A stretch of DNA of 64,000 bases from Gelidibacter japonicus (GTDB lineage: Bacteria > Bacteroidota > Bacteroidia > Flavobacteriales > Flavobacteriaceae), in assembly GCF_010725055.1 (NCBI RefSeq), contig NZ_BJKB01000007.1, forward strand, positions 1 to 64,000. The letters run 5' to 3'. Numbering within the stretch: the stretch's first letter is position 1; each line of letters begins with the position of its first letter. The translations under genes were made by a program, and so were the position numbers. Of the stretch, positions 53,315 to 61,242 are shown piece by piece. The notes under the pieces are model-generated. The model saw only the letters and a program-made list of their open reading frames with translations. It had not been told where the DNA came from and ran no database searches.

Positions 53315-53902
53315 ATGTTTCAATTAGGAAAAACCATCGTTTCAGAAGATCTTCTTGAGAAGGACTTTGTATGCAATTTAGCCGCGTGCAAAGGAGCCTG
53401 CTGTATCGATGGAGATGCCGGCGCTCCTTTAGAGTTGCAAGAAACAAAAATCATGCAGGATATATATCCCAAGATCAAACCGTTTTTGCGTCAAGAGGGC
53501 ATTGATGCTATTGAGGCTCAAGGTACGTTTATCACCACCGAAGAGGGCGAATTTGAAACTCCTTTAATTGATGGGGCAGACTGTGCCTATGTCATTTTTG
53601 ACAAAAAAGGAACTGCGCTCTGTGCCTTCGAAGAAGCCTACAATCAGGGTGAGACAGATTGGAAAAAGCCCGTATCTTGTCATTTGTACCCGGTGCGCGT
53701 CAAAGAGTATTCTGAATTTTCTGCTCTAAATTATCATAAATGGGAAATCTGCGATGCTGCTTGCACTTTAGGCAAAGAGCTTCAGGTGCCTGTTTATAAG
53801 TTTGTTAAGCAAGCGCTGATCAGAAAATTTGGAGAAGATTGGTATATGGAACTGGAAAAAGTGGCAGAGAATCAAAAATCTCAAGGCAAGCGAACCACCT
53901 AA
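53315..53902 (+). CDS. DUF3109 family cysteine-rich protein
   Basis: A 195-residue cytoplasmic protein. A Cys cluster near the start (FVCNLAACKGACCIDGDAGAP) and further Cys in ADCAYVIF, TALCAFEEAYN, KPVSCHLYPVR and EICDAACTLG recall the YkgJ/Fe-S or zinc-binding CxxCxxxCC group; DUF3109 is the named family. Metal binding is likely, while the biochemical role is not known. It is transcribed away from the marC-like operon and stands alone; the LytTR-type repeat at 53980-54012 lies just downstream of its stop. Confidence 0.85.
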   Translation: MFQLGKTIVSEDLLEKDFVCNLAACKGACCIDGDAGAPLELQETKIMQDIYPKIKPFLRQEGIDAIEAQGTFITTEEGEFETPLIDGADCAYVIFDKKGTALCAFEEAYNQGETDWKKPVSCHLYPVRVKEYSEFSALNYHKWEICDAACTLGKELQVPVYKFVKQALIRKFGEDWYMELEKVAENQKSQGKRTT

Positions 53903-53979
53903 ACATAGGAATTTATTTTTTTGAGGGGGCAAGAAGGATAAAATTCATTGGTGGGAATCAATCTCAACCCTCTTTTTGT

Positions 53980-54012
53980 TCCAACTATACATTATTCACT
54001 ACAGACCATACA
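53980..54012 (+). promoter_or_regulatory. Direct repeat upstream of the DUF4412-like gene, candidate LytTR site
   Basis: TCCAACTATACA at 53980-53991 and ACAGACCATACA at 54001-54012, 21 bases apart. The first unit and its spacer are almost identical to the pair at 58535-58567. They end 29 bases before a -7-like TAGCTTTA. Confidence 0.55.
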
Positions 54013-54041
54013 TTCTTTTAGCCTTAGTTCATTTGTTTTAA

Positions 54042-54049
54042 TAGCTTTA
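54042..54049 (+). promoter_or_regulatory. -7-like box of the DUF4412-like gene
   Basis: TAGCTTTA, one base from TAnnTTTG; no -33 at the right distance, as expected for an activator-dependent promoter. Confidence 0.4.
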
Positions 54050-54081
54050 AGTAACCTTAATTCAATTAATCCAATTTGCAA

Positions 54082-54783
54082 ATGAAAAGTTCAGTTGTTA
54101 GAGTTGCTTTATGCTTCCTGTTTTTGTTCTCTACAAGCATTGTTCTATCTCAAAAGGGCTCTAAAGAGCTTAAAGACCTATACAATTTTGATTATATCTA
54201 TAAACTTAAAATAACCAACAAAAATGATGAAATCCAAATGGATTATTATCTCAAAAAAGACGCGGGATATTTTGGTTTTGATATTTCAGAAATGACCAAA
54301 GGCCAGAAAGACATGAAGATGTTTACCGTTATTGACTACGATAACAGTACTACCGGAATGTTCATGGAAATGATGGGTAAAAAAATGGTTCAAAAATCGA
54401 AAATAAAGCTTAGCGATTTTGATTTAGATGAAAACGATCCCGATTTTACAATTACAAAAATAGGCTCTAAAACCATTTTGGGGTTTAACTGTCAAGGCTT
54501 TGTTATGGAAAACAAGGATAGTGAAGTCACGGTTTATCTTACTGATGAAGCCCCAGTGAGCTTTAATAAAGTATGGGATAACAGCAGATCCAAGATGCCA
54601 AAAGGCTTCAACCCAGCCTGGATGGAAACCTATGCAGAGAATGGACTCATGATGGAAATGCAGTTTATTGACAAAAAGAAAAAAAAGAATAACACGACCA
54701 TGTTATGCGTAGGCTTGGAAAAAACCGATTTTTCGCTCCAAGCCTCAGATTACGGTTCTATGTTAGGTGCTCTTGGAAAATAA
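54082..54783 (+). CDS. Secreted DUF4412-like protein
   Basis: A 233-residue exported protein: signal peptide MKSSVVRVALCFLFLFSTSIVLS then QKG. The mature part, YNFDYIYKLKITNKNDEIQMDYYLKKDAGYF, then FTVIDYDNSTTGMFME, SKTILGFNCQGFVMENKDSEVTVYL and WMETYAENGLMMEMQF, matches the pattern of DUF4412 proteins (beta-rich envelope proteins of unknown role). The ATG at 54082 gives a clean signal peptide; a TTG six bases earlier is not needed. Upstream lies the 21-base-spaced direct repeat shared with the two-component locus, so control by the nearby LytTR regulator is suggested. Ends before a strong terminator. Confidence 0.8.
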   Translation: MKSSVVRVALCFLFLFSTSIVLSQKGSKELKDLYNFDYIYKLKITNKNDEIQMDYYLKKDAGYFGFDISEMTKGQKDMKMFTVIDYDNSTTGMFMEMMGKKMVQKSKIKLSDFDLDENDPDFTITKIGSKTILGFNCQGFVMENKDSEVTVYLTDEAPVSFNKVWDNSRSKMPKGFNPAWMETYAENGLMMEMQFIDKKKKKNNTTMLCVGLEKTDFSLQASDYGSMLGALGK

Positions 54784-54817
54784 TTCCGGTATTTGATATT
54801 GAACCATTCCCTCAACC

Positions 54818-54851
54818 AAAAAGGCATTTCACGTATTGAAATGCCTTTTTT
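54818..54851 (+). terminator. Terminator of the DUF4412-like gene
   Basis: Stem AAAAGGCATTTC/GAAATGCCTTTT with loop region ACGTATT, then T-run. Confidence 0.85.
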
Positions 54852-54886
54852 ACGCAATTAAGATATAAAACAACCTTCATTGTAAT

Positions 54887-54894
54887 TATCTTTG
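54887..54894 (+). promoter_or_regulatory. -7 promoter box of the 54.9-kb secreted protein gene
   Basis: TATCTTTG (TAnnTTTG), 21 bases before the ATG at 54916; it contains a TTG that could be mistaken for a start codon. Confidence 0.55.
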
Positions 54895-54915
54895 AGATCA
54901 TTAGAAACCTATTTT

Positions 54916-55539
54916 ATGAAACCATTACTAAGCGTTCTCATTGCTATCTTCTCTATTTCTACTGCCTTTTCTGATCCAATTACGGCAACCATCATTTTTG
55001 AAAATTTCACTGAAAAAACCACCATCTCTGGCGTATTTTTTATTAAAGAAACCAATCAAAGACTAGAAATTAATTCATTAGAGAAATTCACGATTACACT
55101 TCCAAGGAAAGGAAAATACCAATTTGGTTTTTATTCTGAAGATGTCACTGCCTCAACCTATTACCCTGTTAGGATTACGGAACGAAAAAACACCGTGACC
55201 ATAAGACTGGAAAACAACACAGCTGATCCTGAAGCAGTCTCAATCAATAGAAGTCTTTCCATGAAAGACATTTCCAACTTTTCAATTGAACAAATTGAAG
55301 AAAGTATAAATAATGGCACCATCAATTTTATAGTCCACGGGCTGTTAGCTATAAATCCTGAAGCCATAAAAGTATTTAAAGAAGATTATGGAGTTGGTTT
55401 TATAAGTGAGAATTGTGTGGTTGATCCTATCGCATTTAAAACAGCAACAAACACCAACAAGAAAATCGAAGCGTATTTAACATTGAAATTTGGCGAGGAG
55501 TGGAAAAACAAACTGCCCGCACTACCTTTTGGACTATGA
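54916..55539 (+). CDS. Secreted protein of unknown function
   Basis: A 207-residue exported protein with signal peptide MKPLLSVLIAIFSISTAFS. The first half of the mature protein is beta-rich (TATIIFENFTEKTTISGVFFIKE, KYQFGFYSEDVTAS). The second half is more helical and has two Cys-free segments around ISEN CVVDPIAF with a single Cys. No family recognised. It lies between the DUF4412-like gene and the convergent two-component operon; a good -7 box and an intact frame support it. Confidence 0.75.
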   Translation: MKPLLSVLIAIFSISTAFSDPITATIIFENFTEKTTISGVFFIKETNQRLEINSLEKFTITLPRKGKYQFGFYSEDVTASTYYPVRITERKNTVTIRLENNTADPEAVSINRSLSMKDISNFSIEQIEESINNGTINFIVHGLLAINPEAIKVFKEDYGVGFISENCVVDPIAFKTATNTNKKIEAYLTLKFGEEWKNKLPALPFGL

Positions 55540-55670
55540 TTTACTCAAAATTATTCAGAAAATTATAAGGTTTACTCGGCAAGGCTTCCTTATTATTACA
55601 TCTATATTTCATCTGACTACCGTGCTCATGAAACAAAAAGACTATACCATAATAACTTCGCAACCACTAT

Positions 55671-57659
55671 TTATGCCGATTTCAGCTTATTGGCACGTGT
55701 TGGAATATGCACTACCACTTTAGTTCCCAACGGTCGTCCATGTGCATCATATAAATCTTCAATATCCATTTTATAATCTGTAGTAAATCGTTTGGAAAAA
55801 TTGGCTAATCGTGCCTTGGTTATGGCGATACCTACTGACCTGCTTTTGAGTACCCTACCGTCGTTGATTTTTTCTGAAGCTTTCCGACCAATGCCATTGT
55901 CAGTAATCGAAATATTAACGAAATCATCATTGACCTTATAAACTCTTAATTCAATTTGCTTGTTCGCCTTTTTAGAAGAAAGACCATGCCATAAGGCATT
56001 TTCAAGAAAAGGCTGTAAAATAAGTGACGGCACTTTAATCACCGAGATATTAATGCCTGGTTCAACATCTATCGAGAAATTAATCTCATTTGAAAATCGT
56101 ATATTTTCAATGTTCATGTATAGTTGCATGGTGTCCAACTCATCTTCCAAAGAAATCTCCTTTTCAGTAGAAGCAATCAATATTTTTCGAATAAATTTTG
56201 AGAATTTATTCAAATAATAGACTGCATTTTCCTTTTCGTTATTGATAATATAGAGCTTTATGGAGTTTAATGAATTAAAGATAAAATGTGGATTCATTTG
56301 GCTCCTCAACATGTCCTGCTCTAAAGTTAATATTTGTTTTTCATGACGTAATTGTCGGTTTCTATTAATGGCTATCATAATACCCGCAACAATGGTTAGC
56401 GTCAAAAGAGCTGCCCAAAATATCGTTTGATTCCGTTGTAATTTGGAGCGCACCAATTCGTTTTCATTGGCAAGTTGTATGATCTGATTGTTTTTGGCTT
56501 CATTTTCATACTGAATTATTATATCACTTACATATTGCATATTGCGCTCAGTGAATATGGTTTTTTCAAGTGTAACAGCCTCCTCATAATGGTATAACGA
56601 CTTCTTGTAATCATTCAATTTTTTATATAATTCCGACAAGTGCATATGGGCGTCAACCCTTGAGGTTTTTAGTCCGTAGGTTTCAGCAACCTCCAATCCC
56701 TTCTTGAGATTGATTTCTGACATTTCATACATTTGTAATTCTTGCTGTACCCAACCCAAATTAATATAGGCGTAGGAAATATAATACTGATCGCCCAAAT
56801 GGATCGCCTTTTTCAGACCTTCTTCAATGATAACTTTGGCATCATTATATTTCTTTTGTTTTATATATACCTGTCCAATACTATTATAACAAATGACCCG
56901 GCCAACTTCAGAGCCAATTTGTTCATTATAATTTAAGGACCGCTTATAGTTTTTAAGGGCAAGATCCAAAAGCCCTTTGGCCTCATCGGCATAGCCCAGA
57001 TTGTGGTAATTAATAGCCAAACCTAATCTATTTCCCAATTGATTTTCAATGACCAGAGATTTTTCAAACTGCTCAATTGCTAGGTCATATTGCTTTAGGG
57101 TCATATAGATATTCCCCATACTGTTTTGTGAAACTGCAATGCTGAGCATCAATTCATCCGATGGATCCTTAACAGATCGTGCAATGTCCAAGGCTTTTTT
57201 ATGATAATCCAAAGCGGGCTTTATAAAATCCATCCGTCGGTAAACCACACCAATCATATTCAAGCTAATAACCTCGAGTTGAATGTTGTTGGCAGCTTGG
57301 GCCAATTTCTCAGCCTTTTGGTGGGCTTTTAAAGCAGAATCATAAAATGATCTATTCCTATAGATTTCTCCCAGCTTATTCAATGCATAGCATTCTACTT
57401 CCAAGGCCTCGGCCTCTGATGCTATGTTCACCAAACGTTTCAAATTTAAACTGTCGTTTATAAACTCGGCAAATATGGAATGAATCTCGGTATAATCCTT
57501 GGGCCAAGTTTTCTCTACCTTTTGTAAGGCAGTTTCAAAATCGGCAGGGACTTTATCTTGAGCCTGAAGTGATAACATAGCGCTTAAGAGCACCAAACCT
57601 AATACGTATAGTTTTAAGTCTCGTACAAAGAATGTTATCAGTTTTAGGAGATGTTGCAT
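55671..57659 (-). CDS. TPR-containing sensor histidine kinase, LytS/YehU type
   Basis: A 662-residue sensor. An N-terminal signal/TM segment (LYVLGLVLLSAMLSLQA) is followed by about eight tetratricopeptide repeats (about 60-400, e.g. ALKAHQKAEKLAQAANNIQLEVISLNMIG), placed outside the membrane. Next come one TM helix (about 418-438, IFWAALLTLTIVAGIMIAI), a short coiled linker and the His_kinase domain, with the phospho-acceptor His near 457 in RSQMNPHFIFNSLNS. An HATPase follows (LILQPFLENALWHGLSSK, ITDNGIGRKAS). Its gene starts 4 bases after the LytTR response regulator, so the two form a pair. The TPR region suggests protein or peptide sensing, by inference. Confidence 0.93.
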   Translation of the reverse strand: MQHLLKLITFFVRDLKLYVLGLVLLSAMLSLQAQDKVPADFETALQKVEKTWPKDYTEIHSIFAEFINDSLNLKRLVNIASEAEALEVECYALNKLGEIYRNRSFYDSALKAHQKAEKLAQAANNIQLEVISLNMIGVVYRRMDFIKPALDYHKKALDIARSVKDPSDELMLSIAVSQNSMGNIYMTLKQYDLAIEQFEKSLVIENQLGNRLGLAINYHNLGYADEAKGLLDLALKNYKRSLNYNEQIGSEVGRVICYNSIGQVYIKQKKYNDAKVIIEEGLKKAIHLGDQYYISYAYINLGWVQQELQMYEMSEINLKKGLEVAETYGLKTSRVDAHMHLSELYKKLNDYKKSLYHYEEAVTLEKTIFTERNMQYVSDIIIQYENEAKNNQIIQLANENELVRSKLQRNQTIFWAALLTLTIVAGIMIAINRNRQLRHEKQILTLEQDMLRSQMNPHFIFNSLNSIKLYIINNEKENAVYYLNKFSKFIRKILIASTEKEISLEDELDTMQLYMNIENIRFSNEINFSIDVEPGINISVIKVPSLILQPFLENALWHGLSSKKANKQIELRVYKVNDDFVNISITDNGIGRKASEKINDGRVLKSRSVGIAITKARLANFSKRFTTDYKMDIEDLYDAHGRPLGTKVVVHIPTRANKLKSA

Positions 57660-57663
57660 AAAT

Positions 57664-58398
57664 TTATAACTTTTCTAAAAAGTCAGATTTTCGTTGTCTC
57701 GCCACGGGAATTTTAAAATTTGATACCATTACAACATAGCCTTCACTTTTTATAAATTCCTTTATTTTTTTAAGATTGATAACATACGAATTGTGAATTC
57801 TAAAGAATTGATTTTCCGGTAAAATATCGTTTACTTCCTTCAACTTCTTTGTAATGACTATTTTTTGAGCATTATACAAAACAATGGTGCTATAATTACC
57901 GTCAGATTCAACGTATTCAATTTCTTCAGCATCCAAAAAAATAAGCTTCCCATCAGTATTGATGGTGATTCGCTTTTGATCAAATCTTGCATTAAAATTG
58001 AGCAATACCTCCTCAATTTTATTTGAATTAGTCAACTTTGAGGTGTGCTTTTTAATTTTCTTGATGGTTTCCTGCAAGTCATCAGAGTCAATCGGTTTTA
58101 ATAAATAATCAATGGCTTCATTCTTTAACGCCTTTATTGCAAATTCATTATACGCCGTGGTAATGACCACCGCAAAATCCTTGTTGGTAAGCTTTCCCAG
58201 TAGTTGAAATCCATCCATTGTTGGCATTTCAATATCCAAAAACAAACAATCAAGAACATTGTTATCAATATAATCAATAGCCTCTTCAGGGCTAGTGAAT
58301 GTTTTGACAATGTCTATCTGATCACGAAAACTAGAAAGCTCCCAGGTCAAACTTTGTATCGCCTTCGGCTCATCATCGATTATTACTGCTTTTATCAT
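57664..58398 (-). CDS. LytTR-family response regulator
   Basis: A 244-residue regulator. The receiver domain (1-120) has the acidic pair Asp8-Asp9 and phospho-acceptor Asp55 in CLFLDIEMPTMDGF, then TTAYNEFAIKAL and the conserved Lys in DYLLKPID. The LytTR DNA-binding domain spans about 140-240 (IEYVESDGNYSTIVLY, FFRIHNSYVINLKKI). LytTR proteins bind pairs of direct repeats around two helical turns apart. Such a repeat is present 137-169 bases upstream of this gene, and another before the DUF4412-like gene. A leaderless promoter TATATTTA (58410-58403) lies 4 bases from the start. Operon with the kinase. Confidence 0.94.
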   Translation of the reverse strand: MIKAVIIDDEPKAIQSLTWELSSFRDQIDIVKTFTSPEEAIDYIDNNVLDCLFLDIEMPTMDGFQLLGKLTNKDFAVVITTAYNEFAIKALKNEAIDYLLKPIDSDDLQETIKKIKKHTSKLTNSNKIEEVLLNFNARFDQKRITINTDGKLIFLDAEEIEYVESDGNYSTIVLYNAQKIVITKKLKEVNDILPENQFFRIHNSYVINLKKIKEFIKSEGYVVMVSNFKIPVARQRKSDFLEKL

Positions 58399-58402
58399 AA
58401 TT

Positions 58403-58410
58403 TAAATATA
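58403..58410 (-). promoter_or_regulatory. -7-like box of the two-component operon
   Basis: Minus-strand TATATTTA, one base from the consensus, 4 bases before the ATG. Confidence 0.4.
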
Positions 58411-58534
58411 AGATTAATAAAACTTAATTTTTTATAAAAATGTATGCTTAGTAGTATTTAATGTGTAATGTGTCAATTTTATTACATTTTCCAAATTTAG
58501 GGACATTTATTTTAACCTAAATCATGCAAGAATT

Positions 58535-58567
58535 ACCAACTATACATTATTTACTACCAACTATACA
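58535..58567 (+). promoter_or_regulatory. Exact direct repeat, candidate LytTR binding site
   Basis: ACCAACTATACA at 58535-58546 and again at 58556-58567, start-to-start 21 bases. On the other strand each contains ATAGTTGGT, which fits 8 of 9 positions of the published LytTR consensus as I remember it. It ends 30 bases before a -7-like CATATTTG. Confidence 0.6.
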
Positions 58568-58605
58568 AATACACCTTATTGTAATCAAAAAATTTATCAT
58601 ATTTG

Positions 58606-58715
58606 GCTAAGGGATTTATTTATTACCCAATAACAATAAAGTGATCGTGGGGATTCACTTTAAGATTAAATGCTATTAATCAAATAAAAAGTCAGGGCTA
58701 GTCCCTGGCTTTTTT
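58606..58715 (+). ncRNA. Possible small regulatory RNA ending at a terminator
   Basis: Between a -7-like CATATTTG (58598-58605) and a rho-independent terminator lies about 105 nt without a gene. It can form an 8-bp hairpin TAAAGTGA/TCACTTTA (58637-58662) before the terminator stem. The upstream LytTR-type repeat suggests it is transcribed under control of the neighbouring regulator. There is no similarity to a known RNA that I can name. Confidence 0.35.
58686..58715 (+). terminator. Rho-independent terminator
   Basis: AAAAAGTCAGGG/TCCCTGGCTTTTT hairpin (one wobble or mismatch pair) with T-run; no protein gene precedes it on the + strand. Confidence 0.75.
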
Positions 58716-58786
58716 AATGAAATGCAGCACTATTAACCTGTTATTTTTATATCATTAATCTTAGTTAGTTTTAGTTAATTAATCAG

Positions 58787-58825
58787 AAAAGCATCTCTTT
58801 CATAGTTTTGAAAGCGATGCTTTTT
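58787..58825 (+). terminator. Second hairpin terminator upstream of the RDD remnant
   Basis: AAAAGCATC-T-CTTTCA pairs with TGAAAG-C-GATGCTTTT around a 6-nt loop, followed by TTAATTTT. Confidence 0.6.
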
Positions 58826-58828
58826 AAT

Positions 58829-58858
58829 TTTGAGCTGTGGCGGAAAGCACTATATTTG
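58829..58858 (+). promoter_or_regulatory. Promoter of the RDD-family remnant
   Basis: -33 TTTG (58829-58832), 18-base spacer, -7 TATATTTG (58851-58858). Confidence 0.6.
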
Positions 58859-58910
58859 AGAACACTAATCGGGGAATATGGATGTGAAACACATGCTATT
58901 TACCTAAGAA

Positions 58911-59381
58911 ATGCTCGCCAGCAGAACTAAGCGTTTCGTTAATAACCTTATCGATTTAACTCCGTTTTACATCATTAGTTACGGCCTCATCTATAGTCTC
59001 TTTTACTTAGGTGAATATTTGGACAATTATGAACTGAGTCAGCTTTTAATGAATTTATAGTACCTAGAGGAACTAATAATCGATTCTATCATAATTGTTT
59101 TTTATTACTTTATTTTCGAAAGCCTGTCTTTCCGATCCTTGGGAAAACACGCAACAAACACCATAGTTATAATGAATAACGGCCAAGCTCCAACTCCCAA
59201 GGATGTTTTAATTAGAAGCCTATGCAGGATAATCCCTTTTGATGGCCTGTCCTTTCTTGGAACAAACGGCAAAGGTTGGCATGATGTTTTATCAAAAACT
59301 TATGTAGTGGATATTGAGAAGTTTAAAACTGGACAAATTTTGGCAAATGAACTCGACCAAATAGGTCAGTCTACGGATTAA
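58911..59381 (+). pseudogene. RDD-family membrane protein interrupted by one in-frame stop
   Basis: One frame from ATG 58911 to TAA 59381 reads MLASRTKRFVNNLIDLTPFY, continuing through two hydrophobic segments, with a single TAG at codon 50 (59058-59060). Past the stop, FRSLGKHATNTIVIMNNGQ, then LIRSLCRIIPFDGLSFLG and KGWHDVLSKTYVV are diagnostic of RDD proteins. Restored length would be about 156 residues, normal for the family, with no frameshift. Its promoter is intact. So this is a recent nonsense mutation, a sequencing error or, less likely, readthrough. The downstream half alone lacks an ATG. Confidence 0.8.
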
Positions 59382-59435
59382 GTTATTTAATATAGAGGAT
59401 ATCGGCATAAGCTCAACAATTGTTTTCTCTTTTTA

Positions 59436-59465
59436 TTTGATACTCATATAACTTCATTAAATTTG
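59436..59465 (+). promoter_or_regulatory. Promoter of aspS
   Basis: -33 TTTG (59436-59439), 18-base spacer, -7 TAAATTTG (59458-59465), ATG 19 bases further. Confidence 0.65.
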
Positions 59466-59484
59466 CACTTCAATTTTTCATACT

Positions 59485-61242
59485 ATGTACAGAAGTCACA
59501 ACTGTGGTGAGTTAAGAGCATCACATATCGATAATGAGGTTACACTTTCAGGTTGGGTGCAGAAGGTGCGCGATAAAGGATTCATGCTTTGGGTAGATTT
59601 GCGTGATCGCTATGGTATTACGCAGCTGGTTTTTGACGATGAACGCAGCTCAAAAGCCTTGATGGAACAAGCTCAAAGTTTAGGCCGTGAATACGTTATT
59701 CAGGTCAAAGGAATGGTCATTGAGCGTGCTTCCAAGAATACAAATATTCCAACAGGCGACATCGAAATTTTAGTATCTGAATTGACCGTTCTAAATTCGG
59801 CAATTCTCCCTCCGTTCACCATTGAGGACCATACGGATGGTGGCGAAGAATTACGGATGAAATACCGCTATTTGGACATCAGACGAAATCCTGTAAAAAA
59901 CAGCTTGATCTTTAGGGCCAAAGTAGCGCAAGAAGTCCGCAACTACTTATCAAACGAAGGTTTTATTGAAGTTGAAACCCCTTATTTGATCAAGTCAACG
60001 CCAGAAGGTGCGCGCGATTTCGTGGTACCAAGCCGTATGAACCAAGGGCAGTTTTATGCCCTTCCCCAAAGCCCTCAAACCTTTAAACAGCTCCTAATGG
60101 TTGGCGGCATGGACAAATATTTCCAGATTGTGAAATGTTTCAGGGATGAAGACCTACGCGCGGACAGACAACCAGAGTTCACACAAATTGACTGTGAAAT
60201 GGCGTTTGTGGAGCAAGAAGACATTTTAATTGCTTTTGAAGGCTTAACCCGACATTTATTGAAAGAAGTCAATGGGGTGGAAATTGAAAAGTTCCCGCGA
60301 ATGACTTATGACGAAGCCATGCAAAAATACGGAAACGACAAACCGGACATCCGATTTGGGATGGAGTTTGGCGAATTGAATGCCGTCTCACAACATAAAG
60401 ATTTTGGTGTGTTCAACAGCGCTGAATTGGTGATTGGTATCGCCGTTCCAGGAGGAAACTCGTACACCCGTAAAGAAATTGACCAATTGATTGACTGGAT
60501 CAAGCGTCCGCAAATTGGTGCTTTAGGCATGATTTACGCACGTTATAATGACGATGGCTCCTTTAAATCGTCGGTTGACAAATTTTATGATCAAGAGGAT
60601 TTGGCAAAATGGGCCGAATTGACCGGCGCAAAACCTGGAGATCTTATTTGTGTGCTCTCAGGAGACACCCACAAAGTAAGACCTCAATTAAGCGCACTTC
60701 GTATGGAATTGGCAACCCGTTTGGGCTTGAGGAATCCTAAGGAATTCGCACCTTTATGGGTGGTCGATTTTCCATTATTGGAATGGGATGAAGACACACA
60801 ACGCTATCACGCCATGCACCATCCATTTACCGCTCCTAAACCAGGACAGTTGGAGCTGTTGGCTACCAACCCGGGGGCAGTAAAAGCCAATGCCTACGAT
60901 TTGGTTTTAAATGGGAACGAAATTGGTGGTGGATCTATCAGAATACACGACAAGAAAACCCAAGCCCTGATGTTTGATTATTTAGGGTTTACTCCTGAAG
61001 AAGCCAATGCGCAATTTGGATTCTTGATGGATGCCTTTCAATATGGTGCGCCACCACACGGTGGATTGGCCTTTGGCTTGGATAGATTGGTGGCCATTTT
61101 AGGTGGCCAGGAAACCATTCGTGATTTCATAGCATTTCCAAAAAATAATTCTGGTCGCGATATCATGATTGATGCTCCAGCACCAATTGATGAAAAACAA
61201 CTTGAAGAGTTGAGTTTGAAACTTAATATTCAATCAAAATAA
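59485..61242 (+). CDS. aspS: Aspartyl-tRNA synthetase
   Basis: Class II aminoacyl-tRNA synthetase charging tRNA-Asp. The 585-residue protein has the N-terminal OB anticodon-binding domain ([26 protein letters not shown]), motif 2 ([18 protein letters not shown] near residue 218-235), the bacterial insertion domain (about 290-415) and motif 3 ([16 protein letters not shown] near 528-543). The size and inserts are those of the bacterial type. A hairpin terminator follows the stop codon by 3 bases, so it is largely monocistronic. Confidence 0.98.

Follow-up and report, generated by a model that had tools for sequence, protein, structure and literature searches.

Which transcript does the direct repeat beside a two-component locus of Gelidibacter japonicus control, and which protein would read it? 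The locus, comprising the genes of a LytTR response regulator and a TPR sensor kinase, lies on contig NZ_BJKB01000007.1 of assembly GCF_010725055.1, of which positions 1 to 64,000 were analyzed as one stretch of 64,000 nucleotides (nt), here called the window. A sequence-only reading of the window had taken two copies of a short motif, 21 bp apart upstream of this operon and with a near copy before a DUF4412 gene, for the mark of a LytTR regulon. Genome comparison strongly supports the LytTR assignment and changes its target: the repeat is very probably an activator site from which the adjacent-encoded response regulator would drive a divergent small RNA (sRNA), sRNA1.

A Low-Copy Repeat Pair Points Away from the lytTR Operon

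The sites and genes concerned are:
58535-58567, + strand: LytTR-type direct repeat pair, two ACCAACTATACA at 21-bp pitch, at the divergent sRNA1 promoter (from sequence)
58598-58605, + strand: -7 box CATATTTG of the predicted sRNA1 promoter, 30 bp past the pair (read from sequence)
58441-58473, - strand: degenerate 21-bp pair towards the lytTR operon, predicted autoregulation site (pair scan towards lytTR)
58403-58410, - strand: -7 box TATATTTA of the lytTR operon, immediately 5' of the ATG (sequence and box-offset count)
57664-58398, - strand: LytTR response regulator, 244 amino acids (Pfam Response_reg and LytTR)
55671-57659, - strand: TPR sensor histidine kinase, 662 amino acids (Pfam TPR_12 and His_kinase)
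53980-54012, + strand: degenerate pair 5' of the DUF4412 gene (sequence, degenerate pattern)
54042-54049, + strand: -7 box TAGCTTTA of the DUF4412 gene, gap 29 (read from sequence)

The exact double unit, ACCAACTATACA-TTATTTACT-ACCAACTATACA, has a start-to-start distance of 21, as the sequence-only reading had reported, and contains ACCAACTAT-12 bp-ACCAACTAT, the published form of a LytTR site. At up to three mismatches from the strict double unit it is the sole match in the window, and 0/100 shuffles contain one. The near copy claimed at 53980-54012 was found to be a degenerate one, TCCAACTATACATTATTCACTACAGACCATACA, which differs from the strict double unit by four mismatches (counted by hand) and is recovered by a degenerate form of the pattern. 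The -7-like boxes said to lie 29-30 bases past the repeats are in place, with gaps of 29 (54042-54049) and 30 (58598-58605). Over the strain's own genome (4.67 Mb), the degenerate pattern at up to three mismatches gives three matches versus one in the control; with G, C, and L numbers denoting genomes, contigs, and loci, the three places are 58535-58567, 53980-54012, and C1:484097-484129 in G000, the strain itself. The pair is therefore no high-copy repeat, and the low copy number that the earlier reading had presupposed is observed. A chance or high-copy repeat is ruled out by the shuffles, by the three genome matches, and by the conservation across the family described below.

In terms of orientation, the earlier placement of the 58535-58567 pair upstream of the LytTR operon is correct in position but not in direction, as the pair points away from the operon to a divergent transcript. 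A role of the strong repeat at the lytTR operon itself was rejected, given its + strand orientation and -7 box and the presence of a separate operon-facing pair. The reading of the repeat as a LytTR regulon site stands in its assignment; what it missed is that the strong site would serve a divergent small RNA and the weaker pair at 58441-58473 the lytTR operon.

The regulator has a receiver domain (PF00072, E = 9e-23) and a LytTR domain (PF04397, E = 1.2e-19), and LytTR orthologues are present in all nine Gelidibacter genomes. According to the list of open reading frames (ORFs), in which frames of fewer than 80 amino acids, including AgrD-sized ones, are unlisted, the minus strand of 55671-58398 encodes the regulator and the kinase alone. 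The lytTR operon (55671-58398) contains no AgrB-sized gene; no genome-wide AgrB profile search was made. A position of -12 to -5 is described for the Bacteroidota-type box (PMC9723704; this and the other papers are cited from partial text). Because the box at 58403-58410 adjoins the ATG and sits at -12 to -5, the lytTR mRNA would be leaderless.

Conservation and Geometry of the Sites

Alignment of the upstream regions shows that the pair beside lytTR is kept in 9/9 Gelidibacter genomes, with a gap of constant length from the pair to a GATATTTG-like box on the strand that runs in the opposite direction to lytTR; past the box, about 106 nt are strongly conserved and end in a terminator. The family set comprised 397 genomes, 126 of which have a LytTR orthologue at E 1e-75 or better; 23 of these already had loci, and the upstream regions of 80 of the remaining 103 were fetched. 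Pairs were scored over 24 positions, with a usual cut-off of ≤7 mismatches and reversed sequences as the control. At this cut-off the pair is present in 70/80 orthologue regions versus 2/80 reversed ones, and the conservation near orthologous lytTR loci that the sequence-only reading had set as a check is thus found at both genus and family level. Ten other inter-unit gaps (5-8 and 10-15 bp) yield 2 to 14 of 80, such that the pair's own spacing stands out. The position of the promoter is similarly constrained: a TAnnTTTG box (≤1 mismatch) begins 29 or 30 bp past the pair in 67 of the 79 site-bearing regions, and every other offset from 10 to 49 accounts for at most seven regions. A pair facing lytTR was found in 40/89 regions (≤7 mismatches) versus 2/89 reversed, followed at a gap of 29 or 30 by a -7 box in 36/40 regions, or in 48/54 if eight mismatches are allowed.

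Published LytTR sites consist of 9-mers with mostly 12 bp between them (PMC6193735) and spacers of 11-13 (PMC4847170), and the AgrA pair is centered at about -60 (PMC4227749). The pair described here, ACCAACTAT-12 bp-ACCAACTAT, fits this build of two direct repeats of 9-11 nt, 11-13 bp apart and upstream of a promoter, and its center lies 59 bp upstream of the predicted sRNA1 start.

The distribution of the pair among sRNA1 homologues follows that of the regulator gene. Outside the genus, 25 homologues were considered (L058-L082); all 19 that lie beside lytTR have the pair (0-5 mismatches), versus 0/6 of those that do not (9-12 mismatches). For five of the six genomes, the family set gave no LytTR orthologue; four of the five (G069, G089, G090, and G239) are only 80-89% complete, and the absence of lytTR may reflect this incompleteness. 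Low copy number, conservation, published spacing (PMC6193735, PMC4847170), and this 19/19 versus 0/6 adjacency together support the earlier proposal that the repeat would be a LytTR-type site. Four of the six non-adjacent homologues (L069, L071, L078, and L082) follow a reading frame whose end, by eye, is like that of the window's DUF3109 gene. In G002, the sites have drifted together and the LytTR domain has two unique changes, I216L and A233S, a single case that proves nothing about co-evolution of regulator and site.

A Predicted RNA, Conserved and Structured, Past the Divergent Promoter

The conserved stretch past the divergent promoter resolves into the following elements, all on the + strand:
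58610-58715: sRNA1, predicted small RNA of 106 nt (start inferred from the -7 box; folding and conservation)
58638-58661: hairpin 1, core GTGATCGTGGGGATTCAC (at least one both-sided change in 7/9 pairs)
58664-58681: hairpin 2, loop AUGCUA (near-invariant sequence)
58672-58683: element GCTATTAATCAA, exact complement of the linker of a second RNA, sRNA2 (complement search)
58686-58715: intrinsic terminator (11/12 pairs with at least one both-sided change)

The window sequence of sRNA1 folds better than 200/200 shuffles. In an alignment of 52 sequences, which was fitted to the structure of the model and hence leans towards it, 93.3% of cells are paired and 147 cells are changed on both sides, compared with a shuffle mean of 38.5. 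Both-sided changes are also observed in all three pairs of the weak first helix (79.4% paired). No Rfam match was found up to E = 5 across 53800-59500, the region of sRNA1, and no RNAIII homologue is among its features. The model of sRNA1 matches 99/397 genomes at E 0.01 or better, of which the 25 loci outside the genus used here have E 2.4e-6 or better; most of the weaker matches, not checked singly, are taken as other terminators.

The exact core pattern occurs at 31 loci in named genomes, from Gelidibacter, Psychroserpens, Subsaxibacter, Meridianimaribacter, Ichthyenterobacterium, and Arcticiflavibacter and from assemblies under other or broader names, and all but one of these loci (30/31) show the pair at ≤6 mismatches (the exception, L092, has nine). 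A coding function of sRNA1 was rejected, as the one short frame that it offers, within hairpin 2, is not maintained across genomes (alignment, by eye). These data are consistent with a conserved structured intergenic RNA with its own promoter and terminator, that is, a predicted transcript.

A second conserved transcript-end lies 3' of sRNA1 in the window (58756-58835), where TTAGTTAGTTTTAGTTAATTAAT is followed by a hairpin and a T run. A similar AGTTAGTTTAGTTAATTATTRGGGAAAAA element with a terminator recurs past the site in several family genomes.

Complementarity to a Second Candidate RNA beside purE

When the genus was searched for the complement of hairpin 2, another candidate RNA, sRNA2, emerged in the interval from purE (Pfam AIRC) to a Peptidase_M3 gene. 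Its features are a TAnnTTTG-like promoter and two hairpins joined by the linker UUGAUUAAUAGC, 11 of whose 14 positions have a predicted chance of ≥0.6 of being unpaired in the strain's own genome; the four copies tested had no Rfam match. The sRNA2 model matches 9/9 genus genomes, and matches without purE (e.g., L254, L260, and L281) were not counted as sRNA2. In 30 family genomes, chosen for carrying sRNA1 or a lytTR orthologue, the 12-mer is found 3' of purE exactly in 22, with one change in five, and with two changes in one, and it is absent from two. Identity per position is 0.89-1.0 within the 12-mer (27 genomes), compared with 0.30-0.70 at 45 of 54 flanking positions, the other nine being higher. 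In G000, the stretches C18:60000-64500 and C20:32000-36500 (L240 and L241) are 100% identical over 4305 bases that include purE and sRNA2, which may stem from the assembly or from a true recent duplication.

Over 12 nt, the sequence displayed by sRNA1, GCUAUUAAUCAA, is perfectly complementary to the part of sRNA2 that is most conserved. Cofolding of sRNA1 with its own sRNA2 yields an intermolecular duplex of 14 bp, whose energy is lower than with 500/500 shuffles of sRNA2 and 499/500 shuffles of sRNA1. Long complementarity to another sRNA's seed, as expected of a sponge, is thereby present. A compensatory change was observed in G035, in which sRNA2 has UUGGUUAAUAGC and sRNA1 has GCUAUUAACCA; G261 and G164 have the same change in sRNA2 and keep G-U pairs. 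This single compensatory change is suggestive of sRNA1-sRNA2 pairing but not proof of it.

The GCUAUUAAUC Element at Other Predicted Transcript Starts

The 12-mer occurs 99 times in the nine genus genomes versus once for the reversed control, a count to which the genes of sRNA1 and sRNA2 and one duplicated stretch of contig contribute. Fifty of the 99 matches were read in context, many of them orthologous to each other. In 17 of the 50 contexts, the GCTATTAATCAA orientation begins 4-6 nt past a -7 box, where about 0.5 is expected per offset, versus at most five at any offset for the opposite orientation. Since the box occupies -12 to -5, an element 4-6 nt further on lies at about the 5' end of the transcript. 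In the family set, TAnnTTTG-N4-GCTATTAATC is found in 99/397 genomes, with one match in the control. By reading, the transcripts with a GCUAUUAAUC-type start include terminator-ended short RNAs, small proteins whose N-termini are signal-like, and the leader of a TPR protein.

Two groups of such transcripts are recorded as observations. At L371-L394, in several family genomes, they resemble RNAs of about 65 nt that end in an ACCUUG...CAAGGUUUUU terminator and may form a third RNA family. At L314, L316, L347, and L361, the mRNA leader of a TPR-repeat protein (Pfam on L314 only) has GCTATTAATCAA directly past a -7-like box, which may point to a connection of sRNA2 with another TPR sensor.

Other Outputs and Predicted Regulon Members

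A simple script rule sorted the outputs of the 89 regions into 22 with an sRNA1-like RNA, 42 with a small ORF (a class that holds at least one wrong frame, L136), 15 with others, and 10 without a site. The small ORFs, on the divergent side of lytTR (L129-L189), begin with MKKC followed by one hydrophobic stretch. Three of these small proteins were searched against Pfam: up to E = 1, two had no match, and the three matches of the third fell short of the curated cut-offs. The site and its geometry thus persist under differing outputs. In G049, the N-terminus of the divergent gene resembles that of an OmpA-domain protein described below (by eye). Similar small proteins elsewhere begin with the GCUAUUAAUC element.

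One further gene of the window is a predicted regulon member:
54082-54783, + strand: DUF4412 protein, 233 amino acids, signal-like N-terminus by eye (domain search)

This gene adjoins the DUF3109 gene in 5/9 genus genomes, its absence from the other four being judged on fetched stretches of 6 kb. In each of the five, the pair lies 5' of it, with 2, 4, 6, 7, and 7 mismatches of 24. A differently degenerate pattern, run over the nine genus genomes, revealed an extra site 5' of orthologous genes in five (G000, G002, G003, G005, and G006). The product in G000 has an OmpA domain, and the other four were recognized by their N-termini; in 4/5 genomes this gene also starts with GCTATTAA (by eye). The good pair match at C1:484097-484129 (L002 and L004) lies 5' of genes for a 208-residue protein and a 963-residue TPR/CHAT protein; it is confined to the strain's own genome (1/9) and was given low weight. 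At L046 and L052, in G002 and G003, three successive repeats with a pitch of 20-21 bp precede small proteins with lipoprotein-like N-termini.

Proposed Mechanism and Alternatives

The sites, their promoter geometry, the conservation and covariation of the RNAs, and their complementarity are features of the genomes themselves; binding by LytTR, activation, intracellular formation of an RNA-RNA duplex, and the direction of its effect are what we infer from them. In the scheme that we favor, the strong site at 58535-58567 would drive the divergent sRNA1 (58610-58715), the weak site placed back to back with it at 58441-58473 would drive the lytTR/TPR-kinase operon and thus provide autoregulation, and further sites would activate the DUF4412 and OmpA-domain proteins. 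The second RNA, sRNA2, would be made from its sigma-A type promoter beside purE. Most likely, sRNA1 would base-pair through the loop and 3' arm of hairpin 2, AUGCUAUUAAUCAA, with the mostly single-stranded sRNA2 linker, UUGAUUAAUAGCAU, which would otherwise pair with transcripts beginning GCUAUUAAUC; induced sRNA1 would then act as a decoy of sRNA2 and free these transcripts. Taken as a whole, from LytTR site to decoy, we consider this explanation probable; for its last part, a LytTR-induced decoy of sRNA2, the comparative data leave the chances about even.

Several observations weigh against the scheme. Ten of the 89 regions have no pair at ≤7 mismatches, and in 42 of the 89 a small ORF takes the place of sRNA1, which is therefore one of several outputs. 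None of the six pairs of hairpin 2 has a both-sided change, so that covariation gives no test of its pairing. With regard to the duplex, compensation is seen in one case only (G035), the sRNA2 linker of G155 is altered where the sRNA1 element is intact, and in G089 a mismatch in sRNA1 is left uncompensated. The sRNA2 linker is kept in G021, G031, G116, and G251, whose divergent RNA is without GCTATTAATC, and G342 has neither sRNA2 at purE nor the element in its divergent RNA, yet has one element at another 5' end. Finally, terminators within 70 nt past the 12-mer exceed the background (93/1000) in both the GCTATTAATCAA orientation (11/50) and the opposite one (14/50), and orientation therefore gives no clean split of two roles.

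That the repeat is read by a paralogous LytTR or a regulator of another family, with the proximity of the locus incidental, is very improbable. Binding by the neighbor is a prediction, and the strain has two further proteins with 36% identity to the LytTR regulator (E 1e-40 or better), but back-to-back pairs flank the lytTR gene across the family, the pair is absent from the sRNA1 homologues without an adjacent lytTR (0/6), and its spacing and geometry fit LytTR sites (PMC6193735).

With the LytTR site and sRNA1 both real, sRNA1 might simply regulate mRNAs by base pairing, to which the GUGGGG loop of hairpin 1 could lend itself, and the match to sRNA2 would then reflect a shared target set instead of a decoy function. 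We regard this as unlikely. In its favor, hairpin 1, which the match to sRNA2 leaves unexplained, is as conserved in the genus as hairpin 2, and in G155 the sRNA1 element persists although the sRNA2 linker is not intact. However, a search of the nine genomes with a 14-nt complement of hairpin 1, the one length used, returned the nine sRNA1 genes and five one-mismatch matches, with two in the control; two of the five (G000 and G005) share a sequence context and nothing consistent emerged. The complement of hairpin 2, by contrast, lands on the conserved sRNA2 linker, with one compensatory change. It is also conceivable, though improbable, that GCTATTAATCAA is a DNA element, either a protein-bound operator or an initially transcribed sequence, whose presence in both RNAs has nothing to do with pairing. 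Its position at about +1 in the 17 of 50 contexts noted above is one where a repressor could sit, and terminators follow it in both orientations. Against this, the element lies about 60 nt inside the transcript and in a hairpin in the genus sRNA1, and in reverse orientation between two hairpins, just 5' of the terminator, in sRNA2; an operator would need neither placement.

Relation to Known Systems

The closest known layout is that of agr P2/P3-RNAIII of Staphylococcus aureus (PMC4227749). As in that system, a LytTR regulator is combined with intergenic direct repeats upstream of both promoters, the center of the pair lies about 60 bp before the start, and an autoactivated operon on one side faces a divergent regulatory RNA on the other, here as judged by sequence. 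In contrast to agr, the kinase is a TPR/His_kinase protein and the promoter is of the Bacteroidota type with a TAnnTTTG -7 box. The locus would work like agr but is not classed as an agr system, because the operon has no AgrB-sized gene and the RNA, without an Rfam match, is unrelated to RNAIII.

Among other related systems, RgaR is a regulator of the LytTR type, and HdrR and BrsR are not known to have a receiver domain. In clostridia, VirR with VR-RNA, VirT, and VirU and RgaR with SpoZ also provide direct-repeat sites that activate small RNAs, the critical G residues at spoZ being 21 bp apart, at -51 and -72 (PMC10602386). These systems belong to a different phylum, their RNAs are not shown to be related to those described here, and the partial text of PMC10602386 does not state a divergent adjacency to the regulator gene. 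The HdrR and BrsR systems share the ACC-type 9-mer direct repeats, the 12 bp between them, and the autoregulation, but their regulators are paired with an inhibitory membrane protein, and the partial text mentions no small RNA (PMC6193735). Among RNAs of the phylum, Rfp18 of Flavobacterium psychrophilum is likewise a genus-conserved flavobacterial small RNA with stem-loops; the text at hand leaves LytTR unmentioned and gives neither sequence nor position, and the comparison with sRNA1 and sRNA2 is by description only (PMC9723704). The GibS/FopS sRNAs of Bacteroides form a Bacteroidota family with a conserved seed against mRNAs of outer-membrane proteins, but their 35-nt FopS consensus does not contain GCUAUUAAUC, and the word sponge is absent from the partial text (PMC11697453). 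Among the matches listed in the literature search, from whose scope subscription papers, preprints, and supplements were excluded, there was no report of sRNA1, sRNA2, or the repeat site.

Regulatory RNAs under the control of LytTR regulators have been described in Firmicutes (agr, VirR, and RgaR), and the same layout is found here in Bacteroidota, with an unrelated RNA and a candidate partner RNA. As a tentative generalization, for which we would give somewhat less than even chances, the Flavobacteriaceae may use a family-wide RNA address code, in which GCUAUUAAUC 5' ends are read by a steadily made sRNA2 via UUGAUUAAUAGC and the LytTR system switches the code with a decoy that bears the same address, the LytTR promoter of sister lineages making a tiny membrane protein instead. 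Two RNA families that have no Rfam match come out of this locus, together with a transcription factor site open to testing and a pairing predicted exactly over 12 nt, and both the regulator and the RNA duplex could be tested in one cultivable strain.

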